A DNA stretch of 32,519 nucleotides. Origin: Bryobacteraceae bacterium. Its GTDB lineage: Bacteria; Acidobacteriota; Terriglobia; Bryobacterales; Bryobacteraceae. The translations under genes and the position numbers were made by a program. The DNA lies in the NCBI GenBank assembly GCA_030039005.1, contig JASHQT010000053.1:1-32519 (forward strand). Direction: 5' to 3'. The notes beneath the pieces were generated by a model, which was not told the DNA's origin, ran no database searches, and saw nothing but the letters and a program-made list of their open reading frames with translations. Of the stretch, positions 5,066 through 20,586 are shown in pieces (the stretch's first letter is position 1; the number at the start of each line of letters is the position of its first letter).

Positions 5066-5620
5066 TTAATGCTGAACCGTGTCCTTGTATGTTCCGTGCT
5101 TCTTCGCGGCTGCGATGAGGGTGGGATAATACTGCACGAACGTGGTGTCCACCGCCCCGTGATCGGCGTGGCAGGCGAAGCATTTCGCGGTCTTGTCGAA
5201 AGCCTTGCCGCTCGATGCGTCCTTCGGAATGGAATAGAACGCCCAACCACCGCGCGCGGAATCCTTTACGTGCGCCACATAGCCCATCAGGTCCGTCTGG
5301 AACTGCCCGTCCTTGTTCAAAAACGAATCGTCCGCCGCGGGGCGGCCCACGTCGCGTAGCTCCATCAGCAGCACTGTCTTGTCGGGCCAGGTCCCCGTAT
5401 TCTCAAACCGTTCACGCACGGAGTGCTGTACAAAGATGTTGGCGAACATGGGATGGCCGGCCGGGCCTTCTTCCGGATAGTTCAGGCCGACGCTGGAACT
5501 CAGGAAATCCCACTGCCGGTAATCCTTCGGAAGCACCAATTCGCCGTTTTTGGTGTATTGCTGGGCGTAGCAGCCAACAGCCATGAGGGCGAGCAGTATG
5601 GCGGTCTTCGCCGTTTTCAT
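5066..5620 (-). CDS. Cytochrome P460-family c-type haem protein
   Basis: A 184-residue exported protein with an N-terminal signal (KTAKTAILLALMAVG, likely cleaved after CYA). The fold signature is that of the cytochrome P460 family: LVLPKDYRQWDFL near the start, a central HPMFANIFVQ strand, and a haem-binding C147-x-x-C150-H151 (CFACH) near the C-terminus. P460 proteins are periplasmic haem enzymes that oxidise hydroxylamine or detoxify NO-related compounds in the best-known members; most environmental homologues are uncharacterised. The gene is divergent from the LytS-type kinase at 5744 with ~120 bp between starts, and convergent with the VWA gene. The substrate here cannot be read from sequence. 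Confidence 0.85.
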   Translation of the reverse strand: MKTAKTAILLALMAVGCYAQQYTKNGELVLPKDYRQWDFLSSSVGLNYPEEGPAGHPMFANIFVQHSVRERFENTGTWPDKTVLLMELRDVGRPAADDSFLNKDGQFQTDLMGYVAHVKDSARGGWAFYSIPKDASSGKAFDKTAKCFACHADHGAVDTTFVQYYPTLIAAAKKHGTYKDTVQH

Positions 5621-5743
5621 ATGTGGTACCTAGTATCGGAAACCAAATGAGGAACCGCCAGCCCCTTCCCTGCATAGGTCCGTGGATTGGCTGCATGGGC
5701 GCGCGCACTCCGCCTTTCAGGCATAAACTTTGATAAGACCACG

Positions 5744-6847
5744 ATGTCTTATCTGAACCGCATGCGGCAAGCCCGGTCCGGCCATACCTGGTGGGTGGCT
5801 GTCCTCTGGCTCGCCGTCGGTCTGATCACAGCCACGCAGGTGGTGGTGGGTATGGCCGCCGTCGGGATGCAGCACAACTGGACGGCGCTATTCTTCACCA
5901 CCGTCGGCGCCTGGCTGATCTTCCCGCTCGCCACGCCGCTGATCCTATCTCTGAGCCGCCGCTTTCCTTTGGCGAAGGCGGGCGACTGGAGAAACATCCC
6001 CCTGCACCTGGCCGCCGCCTTAGCGCTCGGCATCGCGCACATCGTGTGGTCCGCTACGCTCGAGTGGGTATTCAATCCGCTGGCCAATCATCCGCCTGCT
6101 TCTTTTCGCCACGTGTTCTTCACCACCGTGTACATGCAATTCCACACCGGGATTCTCATCTACGCGGCTACTGTGGCGATCGGGAATACCATCGATTCGA
6201 TCCGCCGCCTGGTTCGCCGCGAAGCCGAAGCGGCCAAGCTGGCGGGCGAGTTATCGAAGGCCCAATTGCAAGCGCTGCGCCGTCAACTGGAGCCGCACTT
6301 TCTGTTCAATGCCCTGAACGGAATCTCCGGACTGGTGCGGGAACACCGCAACGAAGCGGCGGTGGAAATGATCGCCGGCTTAAGCGACCTGTTGCGGCGC
6401 GTGCTGGAAGACTCGGGCCGGCAACTGGTCCCGCTGGCCGAGGAAGTGTCCTTTCTCGAAAGCTACATCGACCTGCAAGCGATGCGCTTCGGAGACCGTC
6501 TGAAGGCCGTGGTGGATATTCCGGTCGAGCTGTATGGCGCGTTGGTCCCGCAGCTTCTATTGCAGCCGCTGGTGGAGAACGCGATCGTGCATGGCATCGG
6601 AAAGCTGGTGGAAGGCGGAGAGATCCGCGTAACGGCGCGCGAGGTGGATGGAATCCTCGCGATCTACGTCTACAACGACGGCCCGGCATTCTCGCTGGCG
6701 GGCGGTGATCGAACGGGCGTGGGTTTGTCCAATACGCGTGGACGGCTGGTCACATTGTACGGCGCGGGCAGCAGCGTGGAGCTTCGGAACGAGGGCGAGG
6801 CGGGCGTGGAAACGATCATCAAAGTTCCTTACAGGACCGGAGTGTGA
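5744..6847 (+). CDS. LytS/YehU-type membrane histidine kinase
   Basis: A 367-residue kinase of the His_kinase (PF06580-like) class. Four hydrophobic segments occupy roughly residues 17-150. A linker helix follows, then phosphoacceptor H185 in LEPHFLFNALNGISG and a HATPase domain with the class-specific N box LLLQPLVENAIVHGI and a GVGLSNTRGRL G2 box. I chose ATG 5744 over an upstream in-frame TTG at 5687 because the membrane helices begin just after it. Its stop overlaps the GTG start of the LytTR regulator (GTGA), a tight two-gene operon. Such pairs sense envelope or small-molecule signals and act through LytTR-bound promoters. Targets are not identified, but the DUF3179 gene lies 56 bp behind the operon. 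Confidence 0.92.
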   Translation: MSYLNRMRQARSGHTWWVAVLWLAVGLITATQVVVGMAAVGMQHNWTALFFTTVGAWLIFPLATPLILSLSRRFPLAKAGDWRNIPLHLAAALALGIAHIVWSATLEWVFNPLANHPPASFRHVFFTTVYMQFHTGILIYAATVAIGNTIDSIRRLVRREAEAAKLAGELSKAQLQALRRQLEPHFLFNALNGISGLVREHRNEAAVEMIAGLSDLLRRVLEDSGRQLVPLAEEVSFLESYIDLQAMRFGDRLKAVVDIPVELYGALVPQLLLQPLVENAIVHGIGKLVEGGEIRVTAREVDGILAIYVYNDGPAFSLAGGDRTGVGLSNTRGRLVTLYGAGSSVELRNEGEAGVETIIKVPYRTGV

Positions 6848-7566
6848 GTCAAATAGGCGCGGTGGTGGTGGATGACGAACCGCTGGCGCGCGCCAACATC
6901 CTGAGTTTGCTGCGGACGGATCCTGAAATCTCGGTGCTGGCCGAATGCAGCTCCGGCGCGGACGCGGTGAAGGTAGTGCGCGAAGTGAGGCCTTCCCTGC
7001 TCTTTCTCGATGTCCAGATGCCGGGCCTGGACGGGTTTGGCGTACTGGAAACGCTAGGCGCCGACGTGCCTCCGGCGATTGTGTTCGTCACAGCCTTCGA
7101 CCAATATGCGCTGAAGGCTTTCGAAGCCGAAGCACTCGACTACCTGCTCAAGCCTTATGACAATGCGCGGTTCTTCCGCGCGCTCTCCCGCGCGAAAGCG
7201 TCATTGACGCATCGTCCTCGCGAAAACCGCCGCTTGGAACGGATCATGATCCGCGGCGCCGGCCGCATCTCCTTCCTGACGGTGGAGGAAATCGATTGGA
7301 TCGAAGCCGCCGATTATTATTCGTGCCTGCACTCCGGACCGAAAACACACCTGCTGCGCCGCAGCATGGGGGAACTGGAGCGCGATCTGGAGGCGGAGCG
7401 TTTCTGCCGCATTCATCGATCGACGATTGTGAACCTGTCGCGGGTGCGCGATCTGTGCCTTGACAGCAGCGGGGAATACGAAGTCGTGCTGCGGGATGAG
7501 ACGAGATTGAAGGTGAGCCGCGGATATCGCGAGAAACTGCAGTCGGCGATTCAGCGAATGCACTGA
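6844..7566 (+). CDS. LytTR-family response regulator
   Basis: A 240-residue regulator starting at GTG 6844, overlapping the kinase stop by 4 bp. The receiver domain has D10/D11 (VVDDEPLAR), phosphoacceptor D56 (LFLDVQMPG), T83 (VTAFDQYA) and K103 (LLKPYD). The C-terminal LytTR DNA-binding domain (~135-238) shows ISFLTVEEIDWIEAADYY, the CRIHRSTIVNL motif and the terminal KVSRGYREKL. It resembles the AlgR/LytR/BtsR group. It should be activated by the kinase upstream and bind paired direct repeats at target promoters. I could not identify such repeats with confidence. The selenoprotein candidate that follows on the same strand could be co-transcribed. Confidence 0.93.
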   Translation: MSQIGAVVVDDEPLARANILSLLRTDPEISVLAECSSGADAVKVVREVRPSLLFLDVQMPGLDGFGVLETLGADVPPAIVFVTAFDQYALKAFEAEALDYLLKPYDNARFFRALSRAKASLTHRPRENRRLERIMIRGAGRISFLTVEEIDWIEAADYYSCLHSGPKTHLLRRSMGELERDLEAERFCRIHRSTIVNLSRVRDLCLDSSGEYEVVLRDETRLKVSRGYREKLQSAIQRMH

Positions 7567-7622: not shown

Positions 7623-9290
7623 ATGTTCCCGACGGCGAAAACGCTCCCCATCGTTGCGACCCTCGCGCTGGCTGCGCGTCTGCTCGCGCAAACAGGCCAG
7701 GGGCCGAAGATATTGATGCAGGAGCCGCTGGGCGATGTTTCCGACCCCAAGATGTCGCTGTTCATCCTCAATGTTTCGCCGGGTGTGACCTTCCCTTCGC
7801 ATTCGCACCAAGGCACGGTCTTCGCATACGTGCTTGAAGGCGACATCGAGAATCAGATAGATCCGGACCCGCCAAAGATTTACCATCCTGGTGATTTTTT
7901 CCACGAGCGTCCGATGCAGGTGCACCGGCTCCTCAAGAACTTGAGCCAGACGGAACCGGCGAAGATCCTGATCTTCCAAAACACCGGCACGTTGCCTTCC
8001 AGCATCCAGCCGCTGCTGCAGGAGCCGCTCGAAAACACCGCCAATCAGCAGGTGAGCGCAATTCTGCTGGTCGCGGCCCCGGGGTCGGCGCCATCGAGCC
8101 CGCACCAACATCCCGGGCCAGTGTTCGCCTACGTGGTGAAGGGCGAGCTCGAGAATCAGGTGGCTCCAGATCCGCCCAAAGTCTACCGCGCGGGCGATGT
8201 CTTCTATGAGCCCCCGATGCATGCGCACCAACTGTTCCGGAATCTGAGCAAAACGGAGCCCGCCGAGGTATTGGTTTTCGAGGTAACTGAAAAGGGACGG
8301 CCGCTAGTGCTGCCCGTGGCTCAGGCGCCTGCCGCGAAACAACCCCAGGGCATGATGCCCTATACGGCGGTACTGGACCCTCAATTCGTTCCCGCATACG
8401 AGGCAGGTTTTCTTCACGACGATGATACGGTGATCGGCGTCTCCCGCGGCGCAGTGGCGCGGGCTTACCCAGGCGCCGACCTCACGCAGCACGGCGTTGT
8501 GCTGGACCACATGCCGGATGGTCCGATCGCGGTCACTTGGTGAGGGGTCTGCAACACGGCCCTCGTGTTCAGGGCCGAAGTCAAGCGTAAGCATCTCCAT
8601 CTCGATTACGACAGCATGGTGGCCGCGAACGAGGTGTTCAAGGATTCCGAAACAGGCAGCCGCTGGCAGCAGTCGACGGGAGAAGCCATCTCCGGACCGC
8701 TGAAGGGCGCGCACCTAGCGATCTATCCGTTCCTGCGCACCACTTGGGGCGAATGGAAGAAACAGCATCCCGATACGCTGGTGTTGAAACCGCTGCCCGG
8801 CTACGCGGAAAACATGGCGGGTTTGAATCGGCTGATTAGTCGCGCGAAGCTCGGCGAGGGCGCGGCGCCCAAGGGAGCGCAGGGCCATGACGATCGACTG
8901 CGCCCGAGGGAAACGGTGGCCGGCCTGCGGATTGGCAACGACACGGTTGCATTTCCATTCTCGGAGTTGCGGACGGCGCGCGTGGTCAATTATCCGCTGG
9001 GCGGAGTGCCGGTGGTGGTGGTTCACCAGCCCTCGTCCGACACGACAACGGCATTCGTAGCGCGCGCGAAGGGCAAGGTTCTCAAATTTCAAGCGGCGGA
9101 CACAGATGCGAGCTCGTTAGTGGATCTGGAGACGCACTCGGCATGGAACGCGTACGGGCTTTGTCTCAGCGGGCCGCTGAAGGGAACGCAGTTGAAACCA
9201 CTGGTGCTGGAGCCGGAGTTCTGGTTCGCGTGGTCGGAGTTTCACCCGCGAACGAAAGTGTTCACCGCGAGCGGCGCCCCGTCGCATTAG
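7623..9290 (+). CDS. Tandem-cupin DUF3179 protein, probable selenoprotein (UGA at 8541)
   Basis: Read through one in-frame TGA, this is a 555-residue exported protein. It has a signal peptide (to ~A22), cupin 1 (~30-118, H60-x-H62 and H101), cupin 2 (~130-220, H161-x-H163 and H202), then a DUF3179 domain (~245-553). The TGA at codon 307 falls in IAVTW-[TGA]-GVCNTALVF, exactly where DUF3179 relatives have the first Cys of TWCxxC; the second Cys is C310. The frame stays open for 248 more codons with clear family motifs (WQQSTGEAISGPLKG, SAWNAYGLCLSGPL, FWFAWSEFHP). A 7-bp hairpin follows at SECIS distance. I therefore read TGA as selenocysteine, giving a U-x-x-C redox motif. Alternatives are a nonsense-mutated pseudogene or a base error (TGC to TGA). 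DUF3179 biochemistry is unknown to me. The Glu of the first cupin motif is missing in both cupins. Confidence 0.8.
8541..8577 (+). promoter_or_regulatory. Candidate Sec UGA and bacterial SECIS hairpin
   Basis: After the TGA (8541-8543) come 13 bases, then a perfect 7-bp stem CGGCCCT (8557-8563) / AGGGCCG (8571-8577) closing the loop CGTGTTC (8564-8570). The loop begins 20 nt after the TGA and has G as its second base. This fits the published bacterial SECIS rule as I recall it: an apical loop of 3-14 nt, G in the first two loop positions, 16-37 nt from the UGA. A competing stem AACACG/CGTGTT (8553-8558/8564-8569) overlaps it. A GC-rich coding region gives hairpins by chance, so the evidence is supportive rather than decisive. 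Confidence 0.6.
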
Positions 9291-11897: not shown

Positions 11898-14129
<2,232 letters not shown>

Positions 14130-14600: not shown

Positions 14601-14632
14601 TTTAGACTATATCTAATCTAAAAGTTTGTCAA
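14601..14632 (-). promoter_or_regulatory. perR-katG promoter with PerR-box-like palindrome
   Basis: On the minus strand a consensus -35 TTGACA (14632-14627) is followed after 17 bases by TAGTCT (14609-14604), or after 15 by TATAGT. Overlapping the -10 is an inverted repeat TTTAGA...TCTAAA (14601-14622) that contains a 7-1-7 element TTAGACT-A-TATCTAA, close in form to Fur/PerR boxes. Initiation would fall about four bases before the perR ATG, so the mRNA may be leaderless. Autoregulation by PerR is inference. Confidence 0.65.
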
Positions 14633-14678
14633 GAGTTCTTGGGGTGCCGCGCGAGTGCAGCGCAGGCGTTCCCGCGGC

Positions 14679-14686
14679 GCTACACT
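14679..14686 (+). promoter_or_regulatory. Possible -10 element of dinB
   Basis: GCTACACT 17 bases before the dinB start codon. The octamer G(C/T)TACACT recurs just upstream of khpA and of the gene at 31010. No convincing -35 is visible. Confidence 0.3.
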
Positions 14687-14702
14687 CTATTCGGACCGGC
14701 CA

Positions 14703-15938
14703 ATGAAGATCTACTTCCACGTCGACATGGACGCTTTCTTCGTCTCCGTCGAAGAACTCTTCGATCCGTCGCTCGCCGGGAAGCCCGTGGTGGTCGGCGG
14801 GCAGGCGAACCAGCGGGGCGTAGTTTCCGCGGCGTCCTATGCCGCGCGCAAATTCGGCGTCCATTCCGCGATGCCGCTGCGCACCGCGGCGCGGCTGTGT
14901 CCGCACGCCATTTTCGTGGACGGGCATCCCACGCGCTATCGCGAATACTCGCGCAAGGTCTACGAGATCCTCAAGACATTTTCACCCCAGGTCGACATGG
15001 CCTCGGTCGACGAAGCCTACCTGGATCTCACCGGCACTGAGCGACTTCACGGACCGCCGTTCTCGGCCGCGCACCGGCTGCACCAAGCCGTCAAGCGCCA
15101 GACCAATTTGAACTGCTCCATCGGCATCGCGACCGCTCGCATGGTGGCCAAAGTCGCATCCGACCAGGCCAAGCCCAATGGCATCCTCTGGGTGCTGCCG
15201 GGCGAAGAGGCGCGGTTCCTCGCGCCGCTCGACGTCCGCAAAATCCCCGGTGTCGGCAAGGTCACCGAAAAGAATCTCGCGGCCTGGGGCGTACGCAAGG
15301 TAGGCGATCTAGCCGCGCTCGAAGAGGATTTCCTGCGCCAGCATTTGGGGCAATGGGGGCTCGCGCTGGCCGGCAAATCGCGGGGCCTGGATGCCGGCGG
15401 CTGGTTCGATCACGAAGTGGGCGAGGATAACGCGCCCAAATCCATCAGCCACGAGTTCACCTTCAATGAAGACACCGCCGATGCCGACGCGCTTGAAGCT
15501 ACGCTCGCGCGGCTTTCGGAGATGGTGGCGCGCCGGCTGCGCGAGCACAATGTGCACGCGCGCACCATACAACTCAAGCTGCGCTATTCCGACTTCAGCA
15601 CCATCACGCGCGCGCACTCGCTCGATCACGGCACGCAGCTCGATACTGAAATTTTCCGCGAGGCCCGCGCGCTGTTTCGCGCCAATCGCAAGCCGAACTC
15701 GACCATAAGGCTGCTCGGCGTGCATGCCGGAAGCCTGGAACGCGTCGAAGGCCAGCTCAACATGCTCGAAGAAGGGAGCACCAGTCGTTGGCGCAAAGCG
15801 ATGACGGCGGTGGACCGGATGCGCGACAAATTCGGCGAAGAAAGCGTGTCGCTCGCCATGGGCCTCAAGGGCCGGTTTCGCGAGCGCGTGCACGAAAATC
15901 CGGCGGGTCTGCCGGGCAAAGATCCACGCGAGGATTGA
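14703..15938 (+). CDS. dinB: DNA polymerase IV (Y-family, DinB)
   Basis: A 411-residue translesion polymerase. ATG 14703 gives the canonical start MKIYFHVDMDAFFVSVEELF. Catalytic metal ligands are D8 and D103/E104 (SVDEAYLDL), and the steric-gate aromatic is F13. Palm/finger motifs (PVVVGG, SYAARKFGVHSAMP), a helix-hairpin-helix segment (KIPGVGKVTEKNLAAWGV) and the little-finger domain (SISHEFTFNEDT...LKLRYSDFSTITRAHSL) are all present. A QLNML pentapeptide at ~350 matches the beta-clamp-binding position of many DinB proteins, and a basic tail follows. It bypasses damaged bases with low fidelity. It sits immediately before khpA, 44 bp away, where rpsP is usually found. No LexA box was recognised upstream. 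Confidence 0.96.
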   Translation: MKIYFHVDMDAFFVSVEELFDPSLAGKPVVVGGQANQRGVVSAASYAARKFGVHSAMPLRTAARLCPHAIFVDGHPTRYREYSRKVYEILKTFSPQVDMASVDEAYLDLTGTERLHGPPFSAAHRLHQAVKRQTNLNCSIGIATARMVAKVASDQAKPNGILWVLPGEEARFLAPLDVRKIPGVGKVTEKNLAAWGVRKVGDLAALEEDFLRQHLGQWGLALAGKSRGLDAGGWFDHEVGEDNAPKSISHEFTFNEDTADADALEATLARLSEMVARRLREHNVHARTIQLKLRYSDFSTITRAHSLDHGTQLDTEIFREARALFRANRKPNSTIRLLGVHAGSLERVEGQLNMLEEGSTSRWRKAMTAVDRMRDKFGEESVSLAMGLKGRFRERVHENPAGLPGKDPRED

Positions 15939-18956: not shown

Positions 18957-19805
18957 ATGAAAACCCCAACGGAACGTGGAAAGGTTGGGGCAACGGCCGA
19001 CGCCCCCGCGCCTTCAGCGGTATCGCCCGGCACTACCGCGACCAAACCGCCGGCCAAGCAGGACCGGCCCCGCGGCACAATCGCCGAATGGACCATCACG
19101 ATTTTGCTGCTGCTGTTCGGCACGACGTTTTTGGTTCAGGCGTTCGTGATCCCCACCGGGTCGATGGAAGATACGCTGCTGATCGGCGATCATCTGCTGG
19201 TGGACAAACTCGCGTATTCGGCGCCCGGCTCGGTCACCAAGTACCTGCTGCCTTATGAGAACCCGCGCGATGGCGACATTATCGTTTTCCGCTATCCGGT
19301 GGATATCACGCAGACGTTCGTCAAGCGCGTAGTCGGCGTTCCTGGCGACCGCATCAAGATTGTCGATCAACAGGTCTATCGCAATGGCGTCAAGCTGATT
19401 GAGCCGTACGTCGTGCACAAGCAGCCCTACCCAGACTCCTTCCGCGATAACTTCCCCAACAGCGAGCCGAACCTCATGCTGATGGATCGCGCGCGGGAAA
19501 TGCTGGCGAACAACGTCGTAAACGGCTGGGTCGTGGTGCCGCCGGATTCATACTTCGCCATGGGGGATAATCGCGACAACTCGCTCGACAGCCGCTACTG
19601 GGGCTTCGTGCCGCGCGACAATATCATCGGCAAGCCGTTGATTATCTATTGGTCCTATAACGCCTCCACGGAGGACCTTGCGAGTTCGCATGTGGATACG
19701 CTGCTCAGCCACTTCCTGGATCTGGCCGAGCACTTCTTCACCAAGACGCGATGGAATCGGACGTTCAGGTTGATCCATGGCTACCACAACTACAACAAGC
19801 AGTAA
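18957..19805 (+). CDS. lepB: Signal peptidase I (first of two tandem copies)
   Basis: A 282-residue inner-membrane serine protease that cleaves Sec/Tat signal peptides. A disordered Pro/Ala/Thr-rich start (~1-38) precedes one transmembrane helix (~43-62). Box B contains nucleophile S69 (IPTGSMEDTLL) and box D the general base K123 (KRVVGVPGD). Box E reads GDNRDNSLDSRYWGFVPRDNI. The protein has an insert of ~50 residues between boxes D and E (YVVHKQPYPDSFRDNF...). The ATG overlaps a 6-codon frame (MKPAAL, 18940-18960). Its 3' end overlaps the second lepB by 29 bp. Confidence 0.96.
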   Translation: MKTPTERGKVGATADAPAPSAVSPGTTATKPPAKQDRPRGTIAEWTITILLLLFGTTFLVQAFVIPTGSMEDTLLIGDHLLVDKLAYSAPGSVTKYLLPYENPRDGDIIVFRYPVDITQTFVKRVVGVPGDRIKIVDQQVYRNGVKLIEPYVVHKQPYPDSFRDNFPNSEPNLMLMDRAREMLANNVVNGWVVVPPDSYFAMGDNRDNSLDSRYWGFVPRDNIIGKPLIIYWSYNASTEDLASSHVDTLLSHFLDLAEHFFTKTRWNRTFRLIHGYHNYNKQ

Positions 19806-20586
19806 TCCGGGCGCCTCCCCGCCGCCGGCCTCCAAGGCTCCAGCAGAGCCCAAGGCTCGCAACTCGGTGGCCGAATGGGCCATCATGATTCTGATCCTGC
19901 TGTTCGGGACCACCACCATCGCGCAGCCCTTCGTGATCCCCACCGCGTCGATGCACAATACGCTGCTCACCGGCGATCACCTGATCGTCGATAAGCTGGC
20001 CTATTCACCGTCCGACCGGGTGACGAAATATGTGCTGCCGTATGAAAACCCGCGGCGCGGCGACATCATCGTGTTCCGGCATCCCACGCTCAACCAGGAT
20101 TGGGTGAAGCGCTGCATCGGGCTCCCCGGCGATCACATCAAGCTCATCAACAAGCAGGTGTACATCAACGACAAACCGCTCTATGAGCCGTACGTGATCC
20201 ACCAGGACAATTCGCTGCAATATCGGGACAATTTTCCCCAAGGTGAACCGGAATTTATCCAAGATCCCAAGATGGCCGCACGCGCGGGGAGGATGCTGCG
20301 CGACAACGTAGTCAACGGCGAGGTGGTGGTGCCGCCGGGCAACTACTTCGCCATGGGCGATAACCGCGACGATTCGCTCGACAGCCGCTACTTCGGCTTC
20401 GTCCCGCGCGACAACATCGTCGGCAAGCCGCTGATCATTTTCTGGTCTTACGACGCTCCTACCGAGGACCTGCAAACCTACAACCTGCACCACATGTTCG
20501 ATCTGGCCGAGCACTTCTTCACCAAGACCCGTTGGAACCGCACGTTGAAGCTGGTGCGCGGCTATCACAACTACCAGCAGAATTGA
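19777..20586 (+). CDS. lepB: Signal peptidase I (second tandem copy)
   Basis: A 269-residue paralogue of the preceding gene, with the same layout: Thr/Ser/Pro-rich start, one transmembrane helix (~31-50), nucleophile S58 (IPTASMHNTLL), lysine K111 (KRCIGLPGD), box E (GDNRDDSLDSRYFGFVPRDNI), and the shared C-terminal stretch DLAEHFFTKTRWNRT followed by GYHNY. Both catalytic residues are kept, so both copies should be active. They differ in the box B context (GSMED versus ASMHN) and in the substrate-facing loops, which may mean different preferences. The ATG lies inside the first lepB gene in another frame, and its stop overlaps the manC start (TGATG). Confidence 0.95.
   Translation: MATTTTTSSNPGASPPPASKAPAEPKARNSVAEWAIMILILLFGTTTIAQPFVIPTASMHNTLLTGDHLIVDKLAYSPSDRVTKYVLPYENPRRGDIIVFRHPTLNQDWVKRCIGLPGDHIKLINKQVYINDKPLYEPYVIHQDNSLQYRDNFPQGEPEFIQDPKMAARAGRMLRDNVVNGEVVVPPGNYFAMGDNRDDSLDSRYFGFVPRDNIVGKPLIIFWSYDAPTEDLQTYNLHHMFDLAEHFFTKTRWNRTLKLVRGYHNYQQN

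Follow-up and report, generated by a model that had tools for sequence, protein, structure and literature searches.

We asked whether a single in-frame TGA in a DUF3179 gene of a Bryobacteraceae bacterium (Acidobacteriota) is a true stop or a codon for selenocysteine (Sec, U). The gene lies in a stretch of 32,519 nucleotides (nt), hereafter the window (GenBank assembly GCA_030039005.1, contig JASHQT010000053.1), where positions 7623-9290 of the forward strand read as one frame of 555 codons that closes with a TAG (9288-9290) and has no break other than the lone TGA at codon 307 (8541-8543). In the read-through translation the codon falls in the context IAVTW-U-GVCNTALVF. Standard open reading frame (ORF) calling yields two pieces, 7623-8543 and 8565-9290 (the second from a GTG), the split that an initial annotation of the letters alone had anticipated. 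That annotation also described one and the same frame on either side of the TGA and an intact DUF3179 domain after it. Both statements proved correct: 248 codons stay open 3' of the TGA (chance from base composition, 6e-4), and each side separately matched the DUF3179 profile, at positions 6-64 (E 3.3e-9) and 67-292 (E 4.4e-46), so that the two pieces cover the profile nearly end to end. We propose, with a probability of about 0.92, that this is a gene for a probably secreted selenoprotein in which UGA 307 is read as Sec via a hairpin at 8557-8577. This reading, also that of the initial annotation, draws its support from the pairing of Sec with Cys at one column of the family alignment, a stem linked to the TGA copies, the selenium machinery (SelA, SelB and tRNA-Sec) of relatives and another sequence that shares the TGA.

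That other sequence, P0013, shares all but 2 of 306 residues with the N-terminal half of the window protein and terminates at the same TGA, making a sequencing error less likely. Among the 120 protein matches listed of 459, the motif T-W/F-C-x-x-C is present in 110, as expected from the claim that relatives carry Cys at this position; 9 terminate precisely one residue ahead of codon 307, and only P0075 fits neither description. Together, P0013 and the other proteins ending at this residue indicate that the TGA is real and recurrent. ORF calling cuts such proteins at the active site and, with 9 of the 120 listed matches ending there, their active form is missed.

For a wider view of the column we searched PF11376 in two sets: first, 15 genomes reached via related loci, which gave 27 rows, and second, 297 genomes from the phylum to which G002, one of the genomes with a window-type TGA relative, belongs (91 genomes with a match, 139 rows). 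The alignment combined the window with 143 copies; 12 rows came from the first set and 132 from the second, with one row in both. Left out were 14 rows of G010-G015 (other phyla, no internal stop), the fragment L039, and seven phylum rows (G225:C82, the second row of G018:C140, G171, G230:C216, G290:C13, G155:C15 and G212) that were either short, most of them failing by profile range to cover the site, or below the cut-off; omitting G171 and G212 reduced the 91 genomes to 89. Once L159 had been dropped as misaligned, 143 rows were usable, 142 of them relatives. Sec and Cys exchange at this one column, which holds TGA in 70 rows, TGC in 51, TGT in 12, another residue in 10 and TAA or TAG in none. 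Without the window, the tabulation of TGA against Cys that had been put forward as a check gives 69 TGA, 63 Cys and 10 other. The 132 phylum rows comprise 59 TGA, 62 Cys, 10 other and 1 artefact, and Acidobacteriota may thus use selenium more than annotation shows. Asn, His, Asp, Gly or Ser occupies the column in L191, L193, L194, L195, L196, L199, L200, L201, L203 and L204; these ten copies are possibly a non-redox subgroup. The residue three places after codon 307 is Cys in 60 of the 63 Cys copies and in 41 of the 70 Sec copies. Hence, the U-x-x-C redox pair of the initial annotation stands as a motif of the window protein but not as a general feature, because the second Cys is missing in 29 of the 70 Sec copies.

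Downstream of the TGA, a 7-bp stem (8557-8563 with 8571-8577) encloses a 7-nt loop (8564-8570) that has G at its second position and starts after 20 nt from the TGA; the hairpin alone folds with -11.9 kcal/mol. PMC13188914 quotes the limits of a bacterial model of the Sec insertion sequence (SECIS) as a loop of 3-9 nt, a stem of 4-16 bp, G in the first two loop positions, 16-37 nt between UGA and loop, and a minimum free energy of at most -7.5, and the window hairpin lies within those for loop, stem, spacing and energy. Plain RNA folding detected no signal in 8535-8640 (z -0.28); one emerged on comparison across copies. Relative to synonymous shuffles, the 51 nt downstream had a mean folding Z of -0.92 in TGA copies (n = 70) versus -0.04 in Cys copies (n = 63), with values of -0.33 versus -0.11 in a control 20 codons further on and -0.35 versus -0.48 (n = 62) in an upstream control. 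All seven stem pairs formed, in any of three registers, in 58 of the 70 TGA copies (including the window), 1 of the 63 Cys copies and 0.4% of shuffled TGA sequences. Of thirty loci fetched later, we set aside L218-L220, in which the pattern could not be located, and L211 and L217, which were repeats; the rest kept the stem in 19 of 20 new TGA copies versus 1 of 5 new Cys copies. The family stem covaries: in 33 copies of the U-P type it is 98% paired, with 27 double (compensatory) changes, and sliding it by 1-3 positions leaves 25-46% pairing and 1-8 double changes. Furthermore, the Arg codon AGG, rare in 15 coding stretches of the window (24 of 512 Arg codons), is present in 9 of 9 window-type Sec copies, with CGC in the Cys relative L023; codon usage alone would give seven of seven pairs in 1.2% of cases.

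The machinery for Sec was counted in the genomes of relatives, and it is present in most of the near TGA relatives. Of the eight genomes that have window-type TGA relatives (G002-G009), all contain SelA (partial in G004), 7 contain SelB over the cut-off and 6 contain tRNA-Sec(UCA). In the phylum sample, 43 of the 46 genomes that carry a TGA copy have selA, versus 33 of the 43 that do not. An order sample, in which 63 of 257 genomes had a DUF3179 match at E 1e-30, gave 49 of 52 (two being partial matches under the cut-off) versus 7 of 11; the TGA of its rows outside the extra fetched loci was taken from stop counts. Pooled, the proportions are 92 of 98 versus 40 of 54 (Fisher p 0.0009), indicative of a loose association, the genomes being related and many of them incomplete bins. 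Some order-sample matches have two TGA codons (L216, L223, L239, G336 and G380) or one TGA and one TAG (L222, L230 and G473), which may reflect a second Sec, the end of a frame or decay. Within the window, ARAGORN detected no tRNA and Rfam at gathering cut-offs returned no match.

Near relatives of the window protein come from Bryobacteraceae, Terriglobia and Acidiferrales, all Acidobacteriota. The nearest, L023 in G001, is 71% identical, has Cys at the column and follows the same sensor kinase and LytTR regulator. A quick tree, subject to warnings about gappy rows and long branches, joins L023 to the window with full support; the two fall within a starred set of 10 members, 9 of them Sec copies, and the Sec label requires 9 changes, at least 6 by the starred branches. 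This nesting suggests a reversion from Sec to Cys in G001. Both G490 and G487 have Cys, the former without selA and the latter with it, and reversion would therefore not be tied to selA loss in every case. With neighbors like the window and G001, Sec/Cys switches beside a kept or lost selA offer a way to test the loss of selenium use.

Two observations weigh against decoding of UGA 307 as Sec. Another, competing fold in the window is more stable than the SECIS-like hairpin, and G001 lacks a SelA match, any SelB above the cut-off and a convincing tRNA-Sec, the best candidate for the last being a tRNA-Ser according to ARAGORN. That the nearest relative in the tree has Cys and lacks this machinery would suit a recent pseudogene or a sequencing or assembly error, with selenium use perhaps lost as in G001 and the TGA a true stop. 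We consider this very unlikely, given that nine of the 120 proteins listed, P0013 among them, end at the same residue, that the stem is intact with its rare AGG codon kept, and that 555 codons run without any other break. The UGA could also be read as another residue: a tRNA-Cys(UCA) might insert Cys, an allo-tRNA might insert Ser, or an altered genetic code might assign Trp or Gly. The column is indeed Cys in relatives, and PMC7609411 reports tRNA-Cys with UCA that resemble tRNA-Sec in other phyla, as well as Ser-type allo-tRNAs in Acidobacteria among others. However, 5 of 18 other reading frames checked in the window end in TGA, which excludes a global recoding, and the TGA relatives have tRNA-Sec(UCA), SelA and SelB along with a stem that fits SECIS limits, making a different residue a slightly poorer prospect still.

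A regulated stop appears the least plausible of all, with hardly any weight in our assessment. The cupin half and the DUF3179 half would then be made as two proteins with partial read-through, for example at high selenium, a scheme that accords with the presence of the cupin as a separate reading frame beside DUF3179 in L001-L009 and with the GTG at 8565, which could start the second half. Yet the TGA lies inside DUF3179 and not at the cupin border, a start at 8565 would drop both motif residues, and the DUF3179 of L002-L009 keeps the TGA though its cupin is elsewhere. In these loci the separate cupin frame adjoins DUF3179 downstream on the same strand (L002-L007) or on the opposite strand (L008 and L009).

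We infer from the relatives that this organism decodes the codon as Sec. By the standard bacterial route, SelA would make Sec-tRNA with the anticodon UCA, and SelB would deliver it to the UGA followed by the SECIS hairpin. The product would have 555 residues and comprise two cupins plus a single DUF3179 domain, with U-x-x-C in the first of the domain's repeats, and the selenol would presumably be the reacting group in a redox role. The signal-like N-terminus points to a protein that is probably secreted (Table 1).

Table 1. Positions of the selenoprotein gene, its parts and the upstream regulators in the window.
Feature	Positions	Strand	Basis
Full read-through frame (555 aa) with signal-like N-terminus, two cupins and DUF3179	7623..9290	+	Frame, Pfam, separate profile matches
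TGA codon 307, probable selenocysteine	8541..8543	+	Column TGA 70, Cys 63, other 10 of 143 rows
SECIS-like hairpin	8557..8577	+	Stem conservation in TGA copies; bacterial SECIS limits
Possible signal peptide, residues 1-23	7623..7691	+	Hydrophobic N-terminus; low-confidence helix 12-21 in model
Cupin 1, residues 49-116	7767..7970	+	Pfam Cupin_2; cupin-fold matches
Cupin 2, residues 143-225	8049..8297	+	Pfam Cupin_1; cupin-fold matches
DUF3179 domain, residues 249-544, tandem repeat	8367..9254	+	PF11376 E 1.4e-64
Sensor histidine kinase	5687-6847	+	Pfam; upstream of gene
LytTR response regulator	6844-7566	+	Pfam; upstream of gene

The read-through protein scored 218.8 bits against PF11376 (cut-off 27), and Cupin_2, Cupin_7 and Cupin_1 all exceeded their Pfam cut-offs; NCBIfam returned weak cupin-type matches only, all below cut-offs. 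When the PDB was searched by sequence, the full-length protein hit cupin-type entries (best E 3e-4), and the only match for DUF3179 was unconvincing (E 0.56). Cupins also filled the fold searches with the whole predicted model and we therefore folded DUF3179 alone. Its halves are alike (BLASTP E 7e-9; hhalign probability 99.9%), and both appear to resemble the Rieske fold, tentatively making DUF3179 a duplicated Rieske-like domain without cluster ligands. Rieske domains hold their [2Fe-2S] cluster with the ligands C-x-H and C-x-x-H. This ligand set is absent among the conserved residues of DUF3179, where, across 38 diverse rows, C307, C310 and H290 are the only Cys or His with at least 75% conservation, and we thus rejected a true Rieske identity. 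Pfam gave no Rieske match on the window protein, and the first half matched Rieske with a probability of only 2.4%. A broader proposal is doubtful: DUF3179 may be a duplicated Rieske-type fold minus the Fe-S cluster, with a Cys or Sec nucleophile in a beta-hairpin of the first repeat, forming a class of redox (or selenol-ligand) enzymes that needs only one Cys or Sec, that has its cupin partner fused or encoded by a neighboring gene, and that changed repeatedly between Sec and Cys within Acidobacteriota as selenium use was gained and lost. If true, the Rieske-like fold would be the first structural handle on this family of unknown function.

Both upstream regulators also precede the Cys version in L001 (tblastn identity 78% and 83%). 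The neighborhood further includes a cytochrome P460-family gene (5066-5620) upstream of the sensor kinase, a heme peroxidase (Pfam peroxidase, two stretches; 11898-14108) on the opposite strand, one gene from the selenoprotein gene, and two adjacent signal peptidase I genes (18957-20586) after rimM, trmD, rplS and RNase HII. A scan of the window for other long frames broken by a single TGA, which cut frames stop to stop and did not itself list the gene at 7623-9290, returned 14606-15427 (+) and 14616-15308 (-); both overlap an IMS-family gene (14655-15938) and were judged to be chance.

The initial annotation was unsure whether DUF3179 selenoproteins had been described. They have: tables in PMC9312934 and PMC13188914 list DUF3179 as a predicted selenoprotein family with the motif UxxC/T, each with reference to Zhang and Gladyshev (2007). 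The protein is not new in kind. PMC9230427 has a single mention of DUF3179, in a table, and selenoproteins of Acidobacteria are known in general from tables of PMC1794560 and PMC12013277. The words acidobacteri, cupin and Rieske are absent from the main text of PMC9312934 and PMC13188914. What we add is the Sec form with a double-cupin fusion, the frequency of the Sec form in Acidobacteriota, the covarying SECIS-like stem and the tentative reading of the fold. The NCBI-derived name 'DUF3179 domain-containing (seleno)protein' is already carried by 5 of the 120 listed matches, all five with Cys, and P0003 bears it as a Bryobacteraceae bacterium entry. Cupin-DUF3179 fusions such as P0001 and P0003 have the same domains as the window protein and 69-70% identity to it, but Cys at position 307. 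With the DUF3179 (PF11376) selenoproteins tabulated in those papers, the window protein shares the Pfam family, the UxxC motif and a single Sec; it differs from them in the two cupins fused in front and in its Acidobacteriota relatives.
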